Origin: a virus
Virus record (IMG/VR): IMGVR_UViG_3300028558_000791
Coordinates: 372,001 to 436,000 of that record
Direction: 5' to 3' (one strand)
Length of the DNA: 64,000 bases
The position numbers and the translations under genes were made by a program. Positions 20,778 through 31,721 of the stretch are shown piece by piece (positions within the stretch are counted from its first letter, which is position 1; every line of letters begins with the position of its first letter). Under the pieces are notes generated by a model. That model saw nothing but the letters and a program-made list of their open reading frames with translations. It was not told where the DNA came from and did no database searches.

Positions 20778-21308
20778 TCAGATACAACAGCTTCCTGGCT
20801 GGATTTTCTCATATATTGCAACCATAGCTTTAAGCTCTGGTTTCTCAGGAGCTAGTACGAGCATGCTTCTAAGTTCAAATTCTAATGGGTTAATCCATGG
20901 GAATCTAGCAGACTCTTGACCATAAACCACGTCTACCCACTGTGGAACAAGAGTAAGATGGATCTCATCTATAAACTCCATGCCGGCCTCATAGATTTTT
21001 TCACCACCTACGATCCAAGTATTTTTACCATTATCACAAGCATCAAGTGCTTCAGCAACACTTCCGAATACCTCAATACCTTCAGAGTTTAGAACTCCAA
21101 GACTATTAGCCAGTCGACTAATGATGATGTTTCGTCTACCAGGCAATGGCTTATTACCAATAGTCTCGAAGGTCTTCCTGCCCATGATAATATTGGAGTT
21201 CTTTGTTTTGTGAGTAAAGAGTCTCATATCTTCCGGTAGTTTCCATGGCAGTTTGTTATCCACGCCAATGTAACCGTTTTGAGAAACGGAGGCGATCATA
21301 TTAATCAT
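20778..21308 (-). CDS. folA: Dihydrofolate reductase
   Basis: 176 residues. Reduces dihydrofolate to tetrahydrofolate with NADPH. Visible motifs: MINMIASVSQNGYIG at the start, then LPWKLPEDMRLF with the acidic residue of the active site, IIMGRKTFETI, LPGRRNIIISR and WIVGGEKIYE, all in the usual DHFR order and at normal length. ThyX, the usual phage partner, lies 450 bp away. ThyX does not itself oxidise tetrahydrofolate, so DHFR here may mainly support other one-carbon reactions. An internal ATG four codons in could be the start instead. Confidence 0.93.
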   Translation of the reverse strand: MINMIASVSQNGYIGVDNKLPWKLPEDMRLFTHKTKNSNIIMGRKTFETIGNKPLPGRRNIIISRLANSLGVLNSEGIEVFGSVAEALDACDNGKNTWIVGGEKIYEAGMEFIDEIHLTLVPQWVDVVYGQESARFPWINPLEFELRSMLVLAPEKPELKAMVAIYEKIQPGSCCI

Positions 21309-21757: not shown

Positions 21758-22405
21758 TTATTCGTAAATCTTCTCTTTAGTCCAACCAAAAGCATCTAGT
21801 GATAGATTGAATTGATTGGTCTCGGATGTCAGTTTGAGCATAGTTTTAGCTAGATTCTGAACTTCAAGCTGTGCACCTTCTTCATTGCGCAATCCCTGAA
21901 AGTGCATGAAGGAGCGGAAGTTAAACATAACGTCAGCCGTGAGCTGATGATTGTATGGTAAGTAGAAGCGAGCGCTTTCCTTAGCACGTTTGCGCGTGAA
22001 TCCTTTAGCAACCAAACGCTCTAAAGTGTCGTGGTACTTTTTGAAGGATTCCTGATAGTGCGTGATTAGTTTTACCTGTTCATCTTCGGGCCAATCGATT
22101 GGTACATAAAGCTTCTCTTCCTGAAGTTTCTTGTAGCGAGCAGACTCTCCATTTACAGAAACTCCGACTCGATGTTTTAAAATGTGGATATGGGTGGCAA
22201 TATCTGTAGTCACTAAGAAATGTAGGGATGATTTTTCAAATGGGGTATGGTGTCCATTAGTTGCTAACATTGTAAGTAGCTTGCCCATACGGCCACGCTT
22301 CTCATCATTCAAATCTCTGGAAGTAGAAGTCCAGGCAGAAAGTGCATGCGTCTCATCAGAGCCGTAGAAACCTACTAGCTCAACCTTATTAGTATAATCT
22401 TCCAT
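21758..22405 (-). CDS. thyX: Flavin-dependent thymidylate synthase
   Basis: 215 residues. Converts dUMP to dTMP using FAD, NADPH and methylenetetrahydrofolate. The ThyX signature is KHRVGVSVNGESARY (the RHRxxSxNxxSxRY motif with a Lys at the first position). Also visible are NGHHTPFEKSSLHF near residue 50 and LPYNHQLTADVMFNFRSFMHF-like segments (about residues 145-170) with the conserved Arg/Asn/His. The stop abuts the stop of the nuclease gene at 21757. Together with dUTPase it gives the phage an independent dTTP supply. Confidence 0.95.
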   Translation of the reverse strand: MEDYTNKVELVGFYGSDETHALSAWTSTSRDLNDEKRGRMGKLLTMLATNGHHTPFEKSSLHFLVTTDIATHIHILKHRVGVSVNGESARYKKLQEEKLYVPIDWPEDEQVKLITHYQESFKKYHDTLERLVAKGFTRKRAKESARFYLPYNHQLTADVMFNFRSFMHFQGLRNEEGAQLEVQNLAKTMLKLTSETNQFNLSLDAFGWTKEKIYE

Positions 22406-23501: not shown

Positions 23502-23704
23502 TTTTTACCAAAAAAGTATCGATAATCTGCGTATGAGAAGTATCCAAATCCAGCAAGCAATGCGCCAAAGGTGACTGACAAGATTGCTGGTTTACCGGTT
23601 GCGATTGACCAGACTATACCACCAATTAGTGCTATGTTAGTAAGCGCGGTGGCAGATGCAGTAACAACCTTAATAGTTTTAGCGACATCCATATTAAACC
23701 TCAT
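23498..23704 (-). CDS. Small two-helix membrane protein
   Basis: 68 residues. The start ATG overlaps the stop of the IMPDH-like gene (ATGA). Two predicted membrane segments (TALTNIALIGGIVWSIA and SVTFGALLAGFGYF), then a basic/aromatic tail (YRYFFGKK). Two-helix proteins of this size are often holins or antiholins, but no lysis gene is nearby, so I leave it as a membrane protein. Confidence 0.6.
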   Translation of the reverse strand: MRFNMDVAKTIKVVTASATALTNIALIGGIVWSIATGKPAILSVTFGALLAGFGYFSYADYRYFFGKK

Positions 23705-24744
23705 TTAATGATTACATCATGCGGATGAGATTCCTTCAGACCCGCATTAGTGATTCTAATAAATACCGGATTATCCTTAAGTTCTTCTAGATTATGGGCT
23801 CCTTGATAGGAACATCCAGAAGTCAAGCCCTCTAAAAGCTTAGTTAATACGGACATATAGCTCCCTTTGGTTGGAACTAGGGCGGCCACACCCTCGATAT
23901 GGTTAGTCTTATGAGTTGAACTGCCTACATATTCTTTGTAGACGACCTTATCAATCTCAACTCTTCTGCCCGGAGTTTCCTCGCAGCCAGCAAAGAGATT
24001 ACCTGCCATTACCATATCTGCAAAGCATAGCGCTTTGATAACATCTCCGCTATTCTTAACACCGCCATCTGCAATGAAGGGAAATTTCCTTCTCTTTTCA
24101 ATGGGGTATGTTCGAGTGCGTTCTAATTCGTTCAATTGTCTTTGGACTTCAGCTACATCCATTAGGGCGGTTAGCTGAGGAACTCCATTACCAGTTTCAA
24201 TTCTAGTAGTACAGAGGCTACCTGGTCCGACACCTACCTTAACAACATCAGTCCCGGCTGTCCATAATCTACGAGCACCTTCTCCAGTAGCTACGTTGCC
24301 AGCAATGACAAACATGTCTGGATACTTACTTTTGATCCAAGCAATCATATCGGTGCACATGTTAGAGTCGCCATGAGCTACATCTATACAGATGTTACGG
24401 ATTCCGGCATCTCGGAATCTACTAACCATCTCTCTATCTGATGGTTTGACACCAACAGACATAGCTAGATGTTCATTACCATGATCATCAAAAAGCTTGT
24501 TAGCTGTTAAGAGCTGCTCTTTTTCATCCATGAAACGATGAAGAATGGCTAGTCCACCACTCTTAATGATCTTGACGGCCATCTCTTCACCAGTAACAGT
24601 TTTCATGTTAGCTGGGATAATGGGGTGAGCGAAGTGGAGCCCTCCCCATCTTACAGAAATGTCTACGTCTTTGGATCGACTTGTGATATCAGAATGTTGG
24701 GGAACTAGAAGCACATCATCAAAAGTTAAGCCTTCACGAATCAT
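23701..24744 (-). CDS. IMP dehydrogenase / GMP reductase family enzyme
   Basis: 347 residues. The N-terminus [10 protein letters not shown] is the classical IMPDH/GMPR opening. The catalytic loop is [21 protein letters not shown] with the nucleophilic Cys, and [17 protein letters not shown] is the phosphate-binding segment. IDVAHGDS and VIAGNVATG are also family-typical. There is no CBS insert: GMP reductases and some phage or truncated IMPDHs lack it. Either way the enzyme acts at the IMP/XMP/GMP branch and would shift guanine nucleotide pools. Which reaction it runs cannot be settled from motifs alone. Confidence 0.9.
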
Positions 24745-24800: not shown

Positions 24801-25034
24801 TTACGCGCCTTTAATTCTGTATACGATTCTTCCTTTGCTTGGATCGTATTCAGAAACTTCAATTTTCACTCTATCACCTAGCAGAATACGAACCGAATTG
24901 ATTCTAATTTTCCCGCTTAGTGAGCAGAGAACTGTATAGGTATCAGTTACTTGAACTTTGAACTGGCCCTTATTGGCATCAATTACTTCGCCTTCAAACT
25001 CTAGTCTATCTCTATCTCTATCTCTATCACTCAA
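24801..25034 (-). CDS. infA: Translation initiation factor IF-1
   Basis: 77 residues, against about 72 for bacterial IF-1. S1-like OB fold: LEFEGEVIDANKGQFKVQV, LSGKIRINSVRILLGDRVK, VSEYDPSKGRIVYR. These match IF-1 positions (G-x-V...HISGKMRxxxIRILpGDxV, SPYDLtrGRIxYR). The N-terminus has a DR repeat (SDRDRDRDR) encoded by a hexanucleotide repeat near 25005-25030. IF-1 binds the 30S A site and tunes start-codon selection. Phage copies are rare. Here it coexists with a phage RF2 and a large array of coupled AUGA genes. Confidence 0.9.
   Translation of the reverse strand: MSDRDRDRDRLEFEGEVIDANKGQFKVQVTDTYTVLCSLSGKIRINSVRILLGDRVKIEVSEYDPSKGRIVYRIKGA
25003..25031. repeat. Short tandem repeat (TATCTC units)
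   Basis: About four copies of CTATCT-type hexamers in a row, coding the Asp-Arg repeat at the N-terminus of IF-1 on the minus strand. Likely prone to slippage, which would change the number of DR pairs without a frameshift. Confidence 0.7.
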
Positions 25035-25046
25035 TGTAGTATCCCT

Positions 25047-25697
25047 TTACTGTTTCAAAATGGAGGCCAGCATCTCCGATTGTTTATTCAAATCGGATAT
25101 GAAAGCTGAACTCGCTGGCAGATATGATAGCCATGCCGCGCCCGTGGCGCAAGGAATGGCCGAATTTTCTTTGTTTCCCAACTGGTGGTAATGCTTGACA
25201 TCTATATGATTTGCAATAGTTTTCAAACTTCTCATGCCCATTACTAGGGGAGAAACCTGTTGCCATTCACCATACCAATATAGGTATGAGCGCAGATGGT
25301 CATCGATACCTAAAAACGTTAGAATGGCGCAGTCTTCATATACATCTTCATCCTTACCGGATACCAGATGTACTAGCTTACTCATCTTAGCTACTTGCTC
25401 TAGGGCCAATCCATAATACAAATCGGTGCTAACGATTCTCTTCCTATCTAATCGCAAATCATTATGGATGAGTTCAACCTTCTTACTCTTCTCCATTGAG
25501 AGAGAGTTGCCGAACTCATCGAACCACCATTTGTATAGAATAATCCTCTCACTTCGCTCATCAAACACATAGTCATATGGTTTGAGACGACAAACCTTAA
25601 TGATAAACTCTAACTCAGGAATATCGCTATACGAAGCTGCTAGTCTAATTTGTTTATCAAGTTTAGCGTGGAGTAATTCTATACTGGGGCTTCTCAT
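25047..25697 (-). CDS. Hypothetical protein
   Basis: 216 residues, start overlapping the stop of the exonuclease gene (ATGA), so co-translated with it. Composition is ordinary soluble. Aromatic segments such as YKWWFDEFGNSLSMEKSKK and YLYWYGEWQQVSPLVMG stand out, but I see no catalytic motif. Position beside a DEDDh exonuclease suggests a DNA-metabolism partner; this is inference only. Confidence 0.6.
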   Translation of the reverse strand: MRSPSIELLHAKLDKQIRLAASYSDIPELEFIIKVCRLKPYDYVFDERSERIILYKWWFDEFGNSLSMEKSKKVELIHNDLRLDRKRIVSTDLYYGLALEQVAKMSKLVHLVSGKDEDVYEDCAILTFLGIDDHLRSYLYWYGEWQQVSPLVMGMRSLKTIANHIDVKHYHQLGNKENSAIPCATGAAWLSYLPASSAFISDLNKQSEMLASILKQ

Positions 25698-26359
25698 AAA
25701 TCTAATAGGGCAGGATCTAATCCTTCATCATCTGCCGGTGGGGCAACTGAATGAATATCAGTCTTGATGTGTGGAAGGTAGTCTACTTGCTTGTCGTCAA
25801 TGAGGCTACGATACAATAGATAAGTGTTTCTACTATCTACCTTAGCGTTGTGAGCCTCGGAAATCTTCTTGATGCCAACCATATCGCAGCAGGCATGGAG
25901 CTGGGTGCTAGTTCTACCAGTGGCAGTCTTGACAATGGTTAGCTTGGACTCATCAGCGGTTTTTAGAAATTCTTTGGTGAGGGAGATGGTGTCTAGCCAT
26001 AGGTGAGCTGGAAACTCTTTACCTGAGGCTTCCCACATAGCCTGGAGAAATCTCCTATCGAATGGAGCATTGTGAGCTATGATGCAACGGTGAGCTGGAG
26101 TTAATCCATCTTCAGCAAAGAACTTCTCGCACTCTGCTATCACAGCTTCACGATCATAGCCGCGTTCAAGATCAGCTAAGGTCTTCTTGGTAATAGCTAA
26201 AGCATCAAAGCTTGCACGCTCAGGATAGATACACTTAATCTGTCTCCAGAGCTGTACCCTATCGGTAACACGAATGATACCAATTTCGGTCATTTCGTGA
26301 TGGCCGCTCTTCAAACCAGTTGTTTCTGTGTCGATTACGTAATATTGAATTCCGGACAT
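25694..26359 (-). CDS. DEDDh 3'-5' exonuclease (DnaQ-like)
   Basis: 221 residues. Exo I: VIDTETTGL (D-x-E near residue 10). Exo II: AHNAPFDRRFL. Exo III: SEAHNAKVDSRNTYLLYR with the His and Asp of the DEDDh class. This is the proofreading-exonuclease fold of DNA polymerase III epsilon and RNase T. The acidic C-terminus (DDEGLDPALLDL) resembles short peptide ligands for sliding clamps, which is inference. Likely acts in replication, repair or turnover of host nucleic acid. Confidence 0.9.
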   Translation of the reverse strand: MSGIQYYVIDTETTGLKSGHHEMTEIGIIRVTDRVQLWRQIKCIYPERASFDALAITKKTLADLERGYDREAVIAECEKFFAEDGLTPAHRCIIAHNAPFDRRFLQAMWEASGKEFPAHLWLDTISLTKEFLKTADESKLTIVKTATGRTSTQLHACCDMVGIKKISEAHNAKVDSRNTYLLYRSLIDDKQVDYLPHIKTDIHSVAPPADDEGLDPALLDL

Positions 26360-26369
26360 TCTTCCTCAC

Positions 26370-26666
26370 TTACCAAAATGCTTTGTTTCTCATATAGCAT
26401 TCAAATTCTTGTTGTGTTTTGCAGAATAACTTATCGCCATTCAGCCACCATTCCATTGTACCATCAGATTTAACTGTAGCCGGACCATCTTCATTGTGAA
26501 GCATCCAACCTCTGAACATTGTATTGACTCCGGGCCTTTTATCTATATACACCATAGTGTATTCATTCCAATTTGGACCAAACCAACTTTCTAAAAGTCC
26601 CCTAAATAAGCTGCCCGGTGTAATATCCACACCACCATTGGACATTATATTTAGAGCTATAGTCAT
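26370..26666 (-). CDS. Hypothetical protein with MORN-like HNEDGPA repeat
   Basis: 98 residues. The segment LHNEDGPATVKSDGTMEWW-LNGDKL is the 'HxxDGPAxxxxdGxxxWWxNGxxH' motif common in phage and bacterial small proteins with MORN-like beta hairpins. One copy only. Its start overlaps the SET-protein stop (ATGA). Function of the family is unknown. Confidence 0.65.
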   Translation of the reverse strand: MTIALNIMSNGGVDITPGSLFRGLLESWFGPNWNEYTMVYIDKRPGVNTMFRGWMLHNEDGPATVKSDGTMEWWLNGDKLFCKTQQEFECYMRNKAFW

Positions 26667-27160
26667 CGCTTTTGAATCATTGTCGGTTCCAATATGTAAA
26701 GTGGAACTAACTGCTTCTTTTTGTACGTATCTTGTAATGTCGCGTCTAGGTACTGAAACCCACTTATTAGTTTTCTACATTTGAAAGAGCCACAATGACA
26801 CTCCATCTTCCAAGTATCATATGTATCAGTAGACGTAAGCGAATAGTCGAATGTAATCTCGGCACCTTCGGGGATAAGGTATAGAGAGTATATGATTGCC
26901 CTATTACCAACTACATGAATATAGCAGTTGGGATCACACGAATGGTTTAGATACTCGGGAACATTCTTGCCCGATGGACCAATAAATGTATTAGGCCCAA
27001 TCTGTAAGTAGATATCTATATTGTCGTGCGGCGGAACATCTCTGTCCAATAGAACTGGTCCGCGAATCTCTGCTACTGGCAGTCCGGCAGGGATGCTTAC
27101 TTTTGTAAAAGTTCCCTTACCGGTTTTGGAGTCTCTAACTTCTAATTGTTGTGAATACAT
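26663..27160 (-). CDS. SET-domain protein (putative lysine methyltransferase)
   Basis: 165 residues from the ATG that overlaps the upstream stop as TAATG; an earlier in-frame ATG at 27187 lies inside the previous gene. SET motifs in order: G-x-G near the start (SKTGKGTFTKVSIPAG), YLNHSCDPNC (NHSxxPN), AEITFDYS, and a post-SET cysteine cluster CHCGSFKC that with the NHSC Cys can bind zinc. SET enzymes use S-adenosylmethionine to methylate lysines. The target is unknown: host ribosomal or chromatin-like proteins or a phage protein are options. Uncommon in phages. Confidence 0.82.
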   Translation of the reverse strand: MYSQQLEVRDSKTGKGTFTKVSIPAGLPVAEIRGPVLLDRDVPPHDNIDIYLQIGPNTFIGPSGKNVPEYLNHSCDPNCYIHVVGNRAIIYSLYLIPEGAEITFDYSLTSTDTYDTWKMECHCGSFKCRKLISGFQYLDATLQDTYKKKQLVPLYILEPTMIQKR

Positions 27161-27504
27161 TATCCGACCAATAGGTTCTTCATCCATCTCAGCATGGTGC
27201 TTCCAGCATCATACACACTAAGTTTGATGTCTTTTCTTCCAACTAATCTATGTTTGATTGTGGAAGGATTCATTCCTCTAATCAATCCGGCTGCTTGTTC
27301 GGGGTCCTCAGCCAATACACGAAAAGTAAGGGTAGCGGGTAACATACACTCTACCTTCACATCGTAGTAAAGTTTAGCTTTGATAGGAGGAGATTTCTCC
27401 TGCTTCTTCGCTTCCTTGGCAATAGGTGGTTTAGCTTGTCCTTGAGGGACAATTTGACTCATGATTTGATCTACTAATTGTGGTTCTTTTTTCTCTTCGC
27501 TCAT
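27160..27504 (-). CDS. Hypothetical protein
   Basis: 114 residues. Lys/Pro/Gln-rich, probably disordered first 45 residues, then a compact beta-alpha region (AKLYYDVKVECMLPATLTFRV, DPEQAAGLIRGMNPSTIK). Stop coupled to the SET gene start (TAATG). No family recognised. Confidence 0.6.
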   Translation of the reverse strand: MSEEKKEPQLVDQIMSQIVPQGQAKPPIAKEAKKQEKSPPIKAKLYYDVKVECMLPATLTFRVLAEDPEQAAGLIRGMNPSTIKHRLVGRKDIKLSVYDAGSTMLRWMKNLLVG

Positions 27505-27517
27505 ATTTGTATCTATA

Positions 27518-28384
27518 TCAGAGGGAGTCTTTATACTTTAGATAATGCTCATAATGAGAAGAATCAGCCCCAATAAGTTCAAAGAATCTCTGCATGAACA
27601 TATCTTTAGCTTTATCCGGACTCCAAGATTCAATGGTGAAGGGAAGTGCCGTAATAGGCTGAACCCAGTCTGGGTGCAATGGGTGCATCAAATCTCTAGC
27701 TTCTGTGGCCAATAGCTTGGTATCAGCTTTCTTTACTGAGTGAGGCTCTTTAATTGGTAACCCAAAGCGCTTGCAAACGGCTTCTTGCATTACCCTCTCG
27801 AACTCGATATAACCTTCAATCTTACCAGACCTTTTCAAAGGACGAGGTACGTCTACTAAATAAGCTTCAGAAGCATCATGTAGTAATCCCCATAAAGCAT
27901 CCTCCTCATTACAGATATGGCTTACATAAACACTGTGCTGCGCAACGGAGTAGAACTTCTTGCAGTGCCCACTAAATCGACATTGCATAGATAATGCATG
28001 AGCAATATCCTGAATAACAATGGCATCTGGGTTAGGATTAGTCGGATTGAATCTACGACCAGAGTAAGTTTGAATCCAAGGTTCGCCTGGTTTGAAACCT
28101 GCAGTAACACCAGCTCCATTATAGTATATGTTGATCTTATTGGTCAGCATGATAGTATGATGGGCAGCATTAGCAGCCTCAAGCTGTTCTAGTGTAGCCA
28201 GGGGCGGGAACTGAGCACCTTTCAATGAAGAAGGGTCTAGCACATAATTAGGCACACCACTTCCTAATAGAGTATTATCAAATGGATCGAGAGGCACGGT
28301 CGTTCCAGTAGTTTGATCTACAAACTCTGTAGCGCCTCTTTTCATAGAAGAAGTGTGTGGACCGTCTCCGTAATCAGGAAACAT
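27518..28384 (-). CDS. HD-domain phosphohydrolase (YfbR-like)
   Basis: 288 residues from the ATG at 28384, two bases after the dUTPase stop. The longer frame to 28459 would cover the dUTPase C-terminal motif and is less likely. HD motifs: FYSVAQHSVYVSH (first His) and LLHDASEAYLVDVPRPLK (HD pair), then a later acidic ligand. The preceding WIQTYSGRRFNP and DIAHALSMQCRFSGH are typical of this phage/plasmid family. Probable nucleotidase activity on (d)NMPs, fitting the dUTPase-ThyX cluster. Confidence 0.85.
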   Translation of the reverse strand: MFPDYGDGPHTSSMKRGATEFVDQTTGTTVPLDPFDNTLLGSGVPNYVLDPSSLKGAQFPPLATLEQLEAANAAHHTIMLTNKINIYYNGAGVTAGFKPGEPWIQTYSGRRFNPTNPNPDAIVIQDIAHALSMQCRFSGHCKKFYSVAQHSVYVSHICNEEDALWGLLHDASEAYLVDVPRPLKRSGKIEGYIEFERVMQEAVCKRFGLPIKEPHSVKKADTKLLATEARDLMHPLHPDWVQPITALPFTIESWSPDKAKDMFMQRFFELIGADSSHYEHYLKYKDSL

Positions 28385-28385
28385 A

Positions 28386-28928
28386 TCATCCAGTTGATCC
28401 GAATCCACCGTTACCTCGCGAGGCACTTCGTTCTTTACAGAGCTTTTCGTATTCTTCATTTGTTACTCTTTCTACTATCATTTCTTCTCGACGAACTGGT
28501 ATGATTTGACCAATAGCTTCGCCCTCTTGAATGGTGAGGTCTTCAGCAACGTATTCAGTAATTACGCCGTTAATTTTGTATCCAGAACCGTAAGGTTCAT
28601 CTAAACCTGCTTCAATTCTAATAGGAGGAAGATACTGGCATGCAAAGATACACTGACCTTCGTAGTCTTCGTCTATAACACCATACAGTGCATGCAGGTT
28701 TTTCTTGGCAAAAGAAGAGGAACGTGGCCTCAATTCCATCCACCAACCAGTTGGGCAGAACATACGAAAACCTAATGAAATCTTAGCGTACTCTCCTGGC
28801 TTAATGATTAGCTTCTCAGTAGACCTAACATCCCAGCCAGTAGCTCTATCAGTACCCCTTGTAGGCAAATAGATATCCGATAACCCTTCATTTATCGCAA
28901 ATTTGAATGTCGCAACATTGTTTTCCAT
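28386..28928 (-). CDS. dut: dUTP diphosphatase
   Basis: 180 residues from the ATG with GAGG 7 nt upstream; a possible ATG four codons earlier has no such site. Trimeric dUTPase motifs in order: RATGWDVRS (motif 1), LRPRSSSFAKKN (2), GVIDEDYEGQ (3), IGQIIPVRR (4) and RGNGGFGSTG (5, the Phe-bearing C-terminal arm). Makes dUMP for ThyX and keeps uracil out of DNA. First gene of the minus-strand cluster. Confidence 0.93.
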   Translation of the reverse strand: MENNVATFKFAINEGLSDIYLPTRGTDRATGWDVRSTEKLIIKPGEYAKISLGFRMFCPTGWWMELRPRSSSFAKKNLHALYGVIDEDYEGQCIFACQYLPPIRIEAGLDEPYGSGYKINGVITEYVAEDLTIQEGEAIGQIIPVRREEMIVERVTNEEYEKLCKERSASRGNGGFGSTG

Positions 28929-29000
28929 GATACCTCGCATAGTTCAAACCATCTTAAATGCGCCATTATTTTTGTCAAGCGCATAAAATCTCATACATTT
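28929..29000. promoter_or_regulatory. Divergent intergenic region (dut / Cys-rich gene)
   Basis: 72 bp between head-to-head genes. On the plus strand TTGTCA (about 28974) precedes an AT-rich stretch before the ATG at 29001; no -10 with good spacing is clear. Promoters for both sides are expected from layout alone. Confidence 0.35.
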
Positions 29001-30839: not shown

Positions 30840-31721
30840 ATGAAATCGTACAAGATGGTATTTTCTTGGATTTTAATTGTAGCGTTTACGGGTGTTTCTA
30901 CAGATGATAAGGCGGACGGTCTCAAAATTGAGACAAATAAAACAGGTGCTCCGCCAGAAAAAGCGGAAATTTCATGGCGGCGGAACGAAGATCGATCGCA
31001 CGCGTGTCCCAGTGATATGATAGAGGTACAAGGCGATTACTGTACCAATCTAAAGACAGAGTGTTTGTACAATATAGACATGGATGGTACTCGTCATTAC
31101 CCAGGAGATATTAATCTGGCCTGTGGGGAGTATAAAAACCCTAGCACATGTCTATCAGATAAGCTAGTACATTTACATTTCTGTATAGATAAATACGAAT
31201 GGCCCAATAAACCAGGTACAGTCCCTCAAGATTGGATGACTTATTTCGATGCAGAGAAGGCTGTAAACTCTGTAGGTAAGCGCCTGTGTACCCATAAAGA
31301 ATGGACGCTGGCGGCAGAAGGCCCCAACACACATCCACTACCGTATGGAGATGGTTTCCATCGTGATAGTAAGATTTGTAACTTCGATAACCATAATCCA
31401 AACATTGACGTATTCCAATCCAAAAATCCTAACGATGAGACTTCAGCTAAGCTTCGTGCCCTATTAGTTCCTTCTGGATCTATGGCGAGTTGTGTGAGCG
31501 ATTATGGTGTACATGATATGTCAGGTAACATCGATGAATGGGTTGTCAATGAAAGTAGTCAAGATATGTGTATTAGTAAAACTACTGGTAACTGTAAGAG
31601 TGGTCTAATGGGCGGTCATATCTGGCATGTACGTAATGCTAGTCGCCCCATGACTACTGCTCATGGTGCAGGATTCAGTTGGTATGAAACGGGCGCTAGA
31701 GCCTGTAAGGATGTTCAATGA
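30840..31721 (+). CDS. Exported SUMF1/formylglycine-generating-enzyme-like protein
   Basis: 293 residues. A hydrophobic N-terminus (MKSYKMVFSWILIVAFTGVS) suggests export. The SUMF1/FGE fold is shown by FCIDKYEWPN, GKRLCTHKEWTLAAEG, LPYGDGFHRDSKICN, CVSDYGVHDMSGNIDEWV and RNASRPMTTAHGAG, ending GARAC. Many cysteines suggest disulphides. Most phage and bacterial members of this fold are not sulfatase activators but ligand-binding or surface proteins. Its stop overlaps the next start (ATGA). Confidence 0.82.
   Translation: MKSYKMVFSWILIVAFTGVSTDDKADGLKIETNKTGAPPEKAEISWRRNEDRSHACPSDMIEVQGDYCTNLKTECLYNIDMDGTRHYPGDINLACGEYKNPSTCLSDKLVHLHFCIDKYEWPNKPGTVPQDWMTYFDAEKAVNSVGKRLCTHKEWTLAAEGPNTHPLPYGDGFHRDSKICNFDNHNPNIDVFQSKNPNDETSAKLRALLVPSGSMASCVSDYGVHDMSGNIDEWVVNESSQDMCISKTTGNCKSGLMGGHIWHVRNASRPMTTAHGAGFSWYETGARACKDVQ

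Follow-up and report, generated by a model that had tools for sequence, protein, structure and literature searches.

SET-domain enzymes are best known from chromatin. PBCV-1 vSET is a small viral stand-alone SET protein, like the phage protein described here, and it acts on host histone H3 and is not known to have a post-SET zinc cluster. A different chemistry is carried out by BurB from Burkholderia thailandensis, a 172-aa SET-domain methionine S-methyltransferase which acts on free methionine and contacts it through the main chain, as described in the available part of PMC12542666. We analyzed a SET gene lying in a window of 64,000 nucleotides, by which we mean the whole stretch of DNA under study (positions 372001-436000 of a virus record of 480,838 bases), and compared its product, its gene neighborhood and its relatives with these systems.

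Results

A complete SET and post-SET protein

The SET gene lies on the minus strand of the window, a strand which the earlier sequence-only reading had left unstated (Table 1). That reading had announced a complete-looking SET and post-SET protein, and the motifs NHSCDPNC, FDYS and CHCGSFKC are indeed all present. Pfam SET (PF00856) matches the protein with 45.7 bits for a curated cut-off of 22.4, and phmmer aligns it to MLL1 at E 2e-13; because of these two values the SET assignment, as read from the sequence, is not a product of chance. PHROGs and NCBIfam gave no match to the protein, and a PHROGs scan of 65 SET relatives matched only two families, neither with a name, one in 3 relatives and the other in 1. 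An alternative start at 27187 would extend the ORF to 174 codons (26663-27187), in which the start listed in Table 1 is M10. M10 is the likelier start: most phage relatives begin there too, and its codon overlaps the stop of ORF 27160-27504 just upstream, an arrangement as in a tight operon.

Structure prediction had been proposed as a check, the loss of SAM-binding residues being the outcome that would speak against the enzyme; AlphaFold2 returned a confident SET fold in which these residues are present. The model, obtained with 65 aligned relatives, is confident across the whole chain (scores in Table 1), and this alignment was used instead of a 2-row alignment which gave a pLDDT of 31. The closest solved fold is that of ASH1L (Z 15.5, rmsd 1.9, 131 residues aligned), with MLL1 (Z 15.1, rmsd 2.5, 131 residues) and BurB (Z 13.3, rmsd 3.6, 128 residues) behind it, and the best Foldseek matches are also ASH1L/MLL1 (4e-10). 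These structural alignments stop between residues 117 and 141, so that the C-terminal stretch is barely covered.

Residues H73, C75, Y106, C121, C123 and C128 are invariant in the 65 hand-chosen rows of the alignment of relatives (A4). The window protein has the complete NH-S-C and FDY set (N72, H73, S74, C75, F104, D105 and Y106) together with a post-SET signature made of CxCx4C and the motif cysteine C75, all four cysteines being found in 65/65 rows. Of the 20 phage rows, which leave out the non-syntenic L082 and L085, 18 have Phe and 2 have Tyr at residue 104; we take it to be the F/Y switch position of lysine methyltransferases. Furthermore, S92 (19/20) and Y94 (18/20) mark the phage group, the other 45 rows having mainly Ala and Arg/Lys at these positions. 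The substitution of N72 by Arg or Ser in 4/20 phage rows and the variation of S74 in 2/20 could point to a SET fold with little catalytic power, serving to sense SAM by binding it or to act as a protein scaffold. We regard this explanation as unlikely, as no NHSC/FDY residue is missing from the window copy and all 65 rows have Tyr106. Altogether, from sequence and model, the gene very likely encodes a real SET methyltransferase. Its predicted pocket is not strictly of the histone-enzyme type, since Tyr at Y51, which phmmer aligns with the CYMFRI segment of MLL1, occurs in only 4/20 phage rows and N72 is replaced in 4/20.

The same record holds two SET genes, the one in the window and a 125-aa one at record position 100,713. 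The latter lies near a gene for a PTH2 peptidyl-tRNA hydrolase (L001, 378-899 and 1465-1842 for the pair), and no post-SET cysteines were seen in its product. Relatives of this second SET are found, among others, in LR756501 and LR756503, 735-kb records of uncultured phages.

Table 1. Features of the window around the SET gene (positions in the window)
Feature	Position	Strand	Basis
Dihydrofolate reductase	20778..21308	-	PF00186 2.1e-38
ThyX thymidylate synthase	21758..22405	-	PF02511 5.8e-33
IMP dehydrogenase / GMP reductase family	23701..24744	-	PF00478 3.2e-91
Translation initiation factor IF-1	24801..25034	-	TIGR00008 2.8e-21, above cut-off; PF01176
Conserved protein, no assigned function	25047..25697	-	in 19/19 distinct SET-positive loci
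DEDDh-type 3'-5' exonuclease	25694..26359	-	PF00929 3.7e-14; phrog_192
98-aa protein, small family, copy number varies among relatives	26370..26666	-	ORF list and comparison of loci
SET-domain protein, 165 aa	26663..27160	-	Pfam SET 9.8e-12; AlphaFold2 pLDDT 95.1, pTM 0.89; ASH1L/MLL1 fold matches
Post-SET CxCx4C (CHCGSFKC), residues 121-128	26777..26800	-	C121, C123 and C128 invariant in 65/65 rows
FDYS motif, residues 104-107	26840..26851	-	Tyr106 invariant in 65/65 rows
NHSCDPNC motif, residues 72-79	26924..26947	-	H73 and C75 invariant in 65/65 rows; N72 in 16/20 phage rows
Small upstream neighbor protein	27160..27504	-	next recognized gene upstream in 17/19 distinct SET-positive loci
HD-type 5'-nucleotidase-like protein	27518..28459	-	phrog_318 E 1.7e-67; in 19/19 distinct SET-positive loci
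dUTPase	28386..28940	-	PF00692 3.8e-13

A conserved place in a phage nucleotide-metabolism cassette

The sequence-only reading had placed the gene in a phage metabolic cluster, and the neighborhood bears this out: the genes are of phage type and several belong to nucleotide metabolism (dUTPase, HD nucleotidase-like protein, IMPDH/GMP reductase, ThyX and DHFR). The gene order in relatives is dUTPase, HD protein, small protein, SET, exonuclease, conserved protein without assigned function, IF-1 and IMPDH/GMPR. The exonuclease is the next recognized gene downstream of SET in 16/19 distinct SET-positive loci, "recognized" here and in Table 1 meaning among homologs of 21 window proteins, with intervening ORFs possible (upstream gaps of at most 518 bases). 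The small protein upstream of SET has no match in Pfam, PHROGs or NCBIfam. In locus L286 (2886-4466), the 98-aa family stands in four tandem copies adjoining SET. A phage IF-1 gene is found near SET in 17/19 distinct loci and also in the SET-less loci L302 and L308.

Elsewhere in the window, the product of 34809-35903 matches an RF-1 (peptide chain release factor) domain and that of 30840-31721 has an FGE-sulfatase (sulfatase-modifying factor) domain, and a PHROGs search with nine large window proteins gave few names, including a tail-fiber match and the release-factor domain. The 12-mer GCTCCCATTCAC occurs in 18 copies between 47978 and 63959, all on the plus strand, for 0.01 expected; many copies precede an ATG by a few tens of bases, and in this block the G+C content climbs from about 0.41 to 0.52-0.61. 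Beyond the window, the next three stretches to the record end hold 8, 2 and 1 copies and the first 20 kb of the record hold 2, with none in three other sampled 20-kb stretches of the record, a spread such as a circular or permuted record would give.

Conservation and absence among uncultured jumbo phages

Such enzymes had been expected to be less common in phages, with a homolog search restricted to phages as the means of checking. This search (tblastn, E 0.01) gave no match to the window SET in 50,697 phage records, yet SET proteins are annotated in other phages. IMG/VR records as long as 472,749 bases contain relatives. A separate scan of IMG/VR, made with the exonuclease in place of SET, returned 30 loci, reduced to 25 once the near-duplicates L287, L289, L295, L299 and L304 had been removed by hand; 19 of these are SET-positive and 6 SET-less. 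For five of these six, the entire record was scanned with two profiles, both of which do detect distant control SETs, and no SET was found at E 0.1 or better; the sixth, L315, was judged from its 10-kb locus only. In SET-less loci L308, L309 and L310 the small protein directly abuts the exonuclease. The SET gene is thus a conserved yet dispensable gene of the cassette in an uncultured jumbo-phage clade, with 19 loci that have it, 6 that do not and five records free of it throughout.

The HD protein accompanies SET in 19/19 SET-positive loci and gave no match in 5/5 SET-less records searched. This joint absence is suggestive only, because the tree of the loci (25 loci and the window, i.e. 26 rows, 20 of them SET-positive, with HD presence set by hand to follow that of SET) gives a single supported independent pair. 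The cassette is also carried by L164, a contig of 383 kb binned with a Chitinophagales MAG and one of the 80 best stretches of the genome-contig scan described below. By its gene content L164 looks like a phage contig of the SET clade, seemingly mis-binned, and its bin is at most a weak indication of the host.

Cellular relatives and a link with polyamine genes

Genome contigs were scanned twice with a profile. The first scan yielded no cellular SET relatives; the second one, with a profile of 13 phage rows, found 211 tblastn-confirmed stretches, and the 80 best were retained. Furthermore, a SET-family match at 1e-12 was obtained in 54/392 Spirochaetota genomes sampled and in 96/371 genomes from the phylum of Woesearchaeota bin L124. 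With these counts, the distribution first proposed, eukaryotes and some intracellular bacteria, proves too narrow.

In a quick tree of 85 rows, the phage SET group is nested within this wider prokaryotic family: 18 phage rows group with an SH-aLRT of 91, or 94 when L085, L020, L084 and the phage contig L164 are included. The tree carries SH-aLRT values and no bootstrap, with 35 of 82 inner branches below 80; 4 Sphingomonadales rows were kept of 32 listed for thinning, and, apart from 11 chosen outgroup rows, only rows of at least 75 bits were included. Identity of cellular relatives to the phage SET is about 28-40%, a range in keeping with a cellular gene that the phage took up recently and has no lasting use for. 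This origin is very improbable, being disfavored by the conserved position of the gene in 19 other distinct phage loci, by the clustering of the phage sequences (SH-aLRT 91-94) and by the retention of the active-site residues.

Some cellular relatives adjoin genes of polyamine metabolism, counted as ORFs within the fetched flanks (about 3 kb for the best 80 of the 211 stretches, about 1.5 kb for a set of 60 Spirochaetota and L124-phylum loci). Among the best 80 of 211, an agmatinase-type gene flanks SET at 7 loci, from Woesearchaeota, Spirochaetes and one Desulfobacteraceae bin; the three of these seven proteins examined with Pfam (L162, L124 and L196) all belong to the Arginase family, and the seven genomes contain one Arginase-family match apiece. 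The 60 loci contain nine agmatinase loci, six of them in genomes already counted among the seven, and hence bring 3 further genomes. Deoxyhypusine synthase-family neighbors are found at 4 loci (three Pfam-confirmed) and AdoMet decarboxylase-like neighbors at 3 loci (two Pfam-confirmed), again among the best 80 of 211.

Fusions are found as well. A Bdellovibrionales protein (L125) joins a PF04371 deiminase to SET, and in Spirochaetota L237 and 13/18 selected regions (L268-L280) SET is fused to an AdoMet decarboxylase-like domain, a number which is not a rate since the 18 regions were chosen mostly for long ORFs. Pfam supports this design in L237 and L268, and phmmer finds the L268 design in 12 more Spirochaetota ORFs. 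A separate decarboxylase-like ORF lies just upstream of each Spirochaetota fusion, cut by the region edge in L274, and L251, from a genome of the L124 phylum, has SET and the AdoMet decarboxylase-like domain in reverse order. In L285 (1152-2600), the SET domain is fused to a second domain which, by eye, we take to resemble an MnmA-type tRNA thiolase. A link between the SET domain and agmatinase, polyamine or S-adenosylmethionine decarboxylase was not found in the accessible parts of the open-licence literature, and the term "SET domain" does not occur in PMC9992855 or PMC10407285.

The adjoining and fused polyamine enzymes raise the possibility that the substrate of the phage SET is not a protein but a small amine, such as a polyamine, agmatine or a metabolite of that kind. 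The enzyme would then alter the free amine pool, which neutralizes packaged DNA and supports ribosomes. BurB, a SET enzyme on a free metabolite (PMC12542666), lends weight to this possibility, which we consider a serious rival, though less likely than protein lysine. Against it, most cellular loci have no polyamine neighbor, and the fused SETs are distant, with about 58-91 bits on the A3 profile vs about 172-280 for the syntenic phages. The phages of the syntenic clade gave no match to AdoMet decarboxylase (0/15 records) and, with the record of L082 included, none to the Arginase family (0/16), records which may be fragments. The sole AdoMet decarboxylase match among 16 records is that of L082, whose non-syntenic 435-kb record (L207) carries a family SET and this match about 25 kb apart. 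Moreover, spermidine synthase-family matches are present in 24/24 genomes tested, so that no missing pathway step needs SET; the idea of SET as a replacement aminopropyltransferase, which came from the AdoMet decarboxylase fusions, was discarded for the same reason. A broader proposal, that most members of the prokaryotic stand-alone SET family methylate amine metabolites of agmatine and spermidine metabolism instead of proteins and that jumbo phages methylate the polyamine pool of their host, seems doubtful to us.

Discussion

We put at about an even chance that the window SET is an active amine N-methyltransferase, most likely on protein lysine. The predicted enzyme would be a functional SAM-dependent SET N-methyltransferase working inside the nucleotide-metabolism cassette and maintained in a clade-specific manner. 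SAM would occupy the pocket that SET forms together with the NH-S-C loop, and a primary amine would enter through the SET channel beside Tyr106. This amine may be that of a lysine side chain, in a protein of the phage or of its host, which is altered during host take-over. Candidate targets could be a phage HU-like DNA-binding protein or a translation factor such as the IF-1 of the cassette. HU-like genes (PF00216) are found in 5/12 phage records (L202-L206, L205 being the record of the window), which are all those of at least 390 kb. No recognition domain was seen in the window protein beyond SET/post-SET.

We favor protein lysine as the substrate on two grounds: the enzymes with the closest folds act on protein lysine, and the switch position is occupied by Phe or Tyr. 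Precedents are the Go1-SET of Methanosarcina and PBCV-1 vSET. The NUE protein of Chlamydia, from the available part of PMC2904774, is another. Against protein lysine, the gene is dispensable, five related records being free of SET, and the fold score of BurB (Z 13.3) is close behind. The sequence-only reading had named the protein a lysine methyltransferase; its SET and post-SET parts are complete as this name requires, while lysine as the substrate goes further than fold and motifs, which do not settle the matter given that BurB uses methionine. Since the contacts of BurB with Met are made by the main chain, the sequence is uninformative on a BurB-type pocket in the phage SET. As to defense, PADLOC gave no match to SET, and an anti-defense role was set aside.

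The fixed position of SET across the jumbo-phage clade suggests that such phages gain by methylating something in the prokaryotic cell. The polyamine link in bacterial and archaeal relatives provides a concrete alternative class of substrates, which the annotation "lysine N-methyltransferase" hides.

Comparison with known systems

ASH1L and MLL1-4 (KMT2) are the best fold and the best sequence matches of the window SET, with which they share the fold, the NHSC and FDY/YDY motifs and the post-SET cysteine cluster. The phage SET differs from them as a stand-alone protein of 165 aa without chromatin-reading domains, in which the part linking the N-terminal strands to the NHSC motif is shorter than in MLL1 by the phmmer alignment and which, after about residue 135-141, falls outside the structural alignments with ASH1L and MLL1. 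Unlike the setting of these enzymes, no histone-fold gene (PF00808) is found in the phage records (0/12), a result which bears on phage-encoded histones and not on host or non-histone substrates. BurB is also stand-alone and of similar length, and matches the profile over positions 9-144 (E 1.8e-19); however, it methylates the sulfur of methionine, and its fold score lies below those of ASH1L and MLL1. Closer in biological context are the SET proteins of other tailed phages, namely the uncultured Caudovirales entries in BFVD, the named ones being at most 22% identical to the window SET, and ORF62 of Stenotrophomonas phage Ps15, known here by name alone from the available part of PMC9025141. 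Phage SET proteins are therefore already annotated elsewhere, and the main new fact is the conserved position of this one in the cassette.
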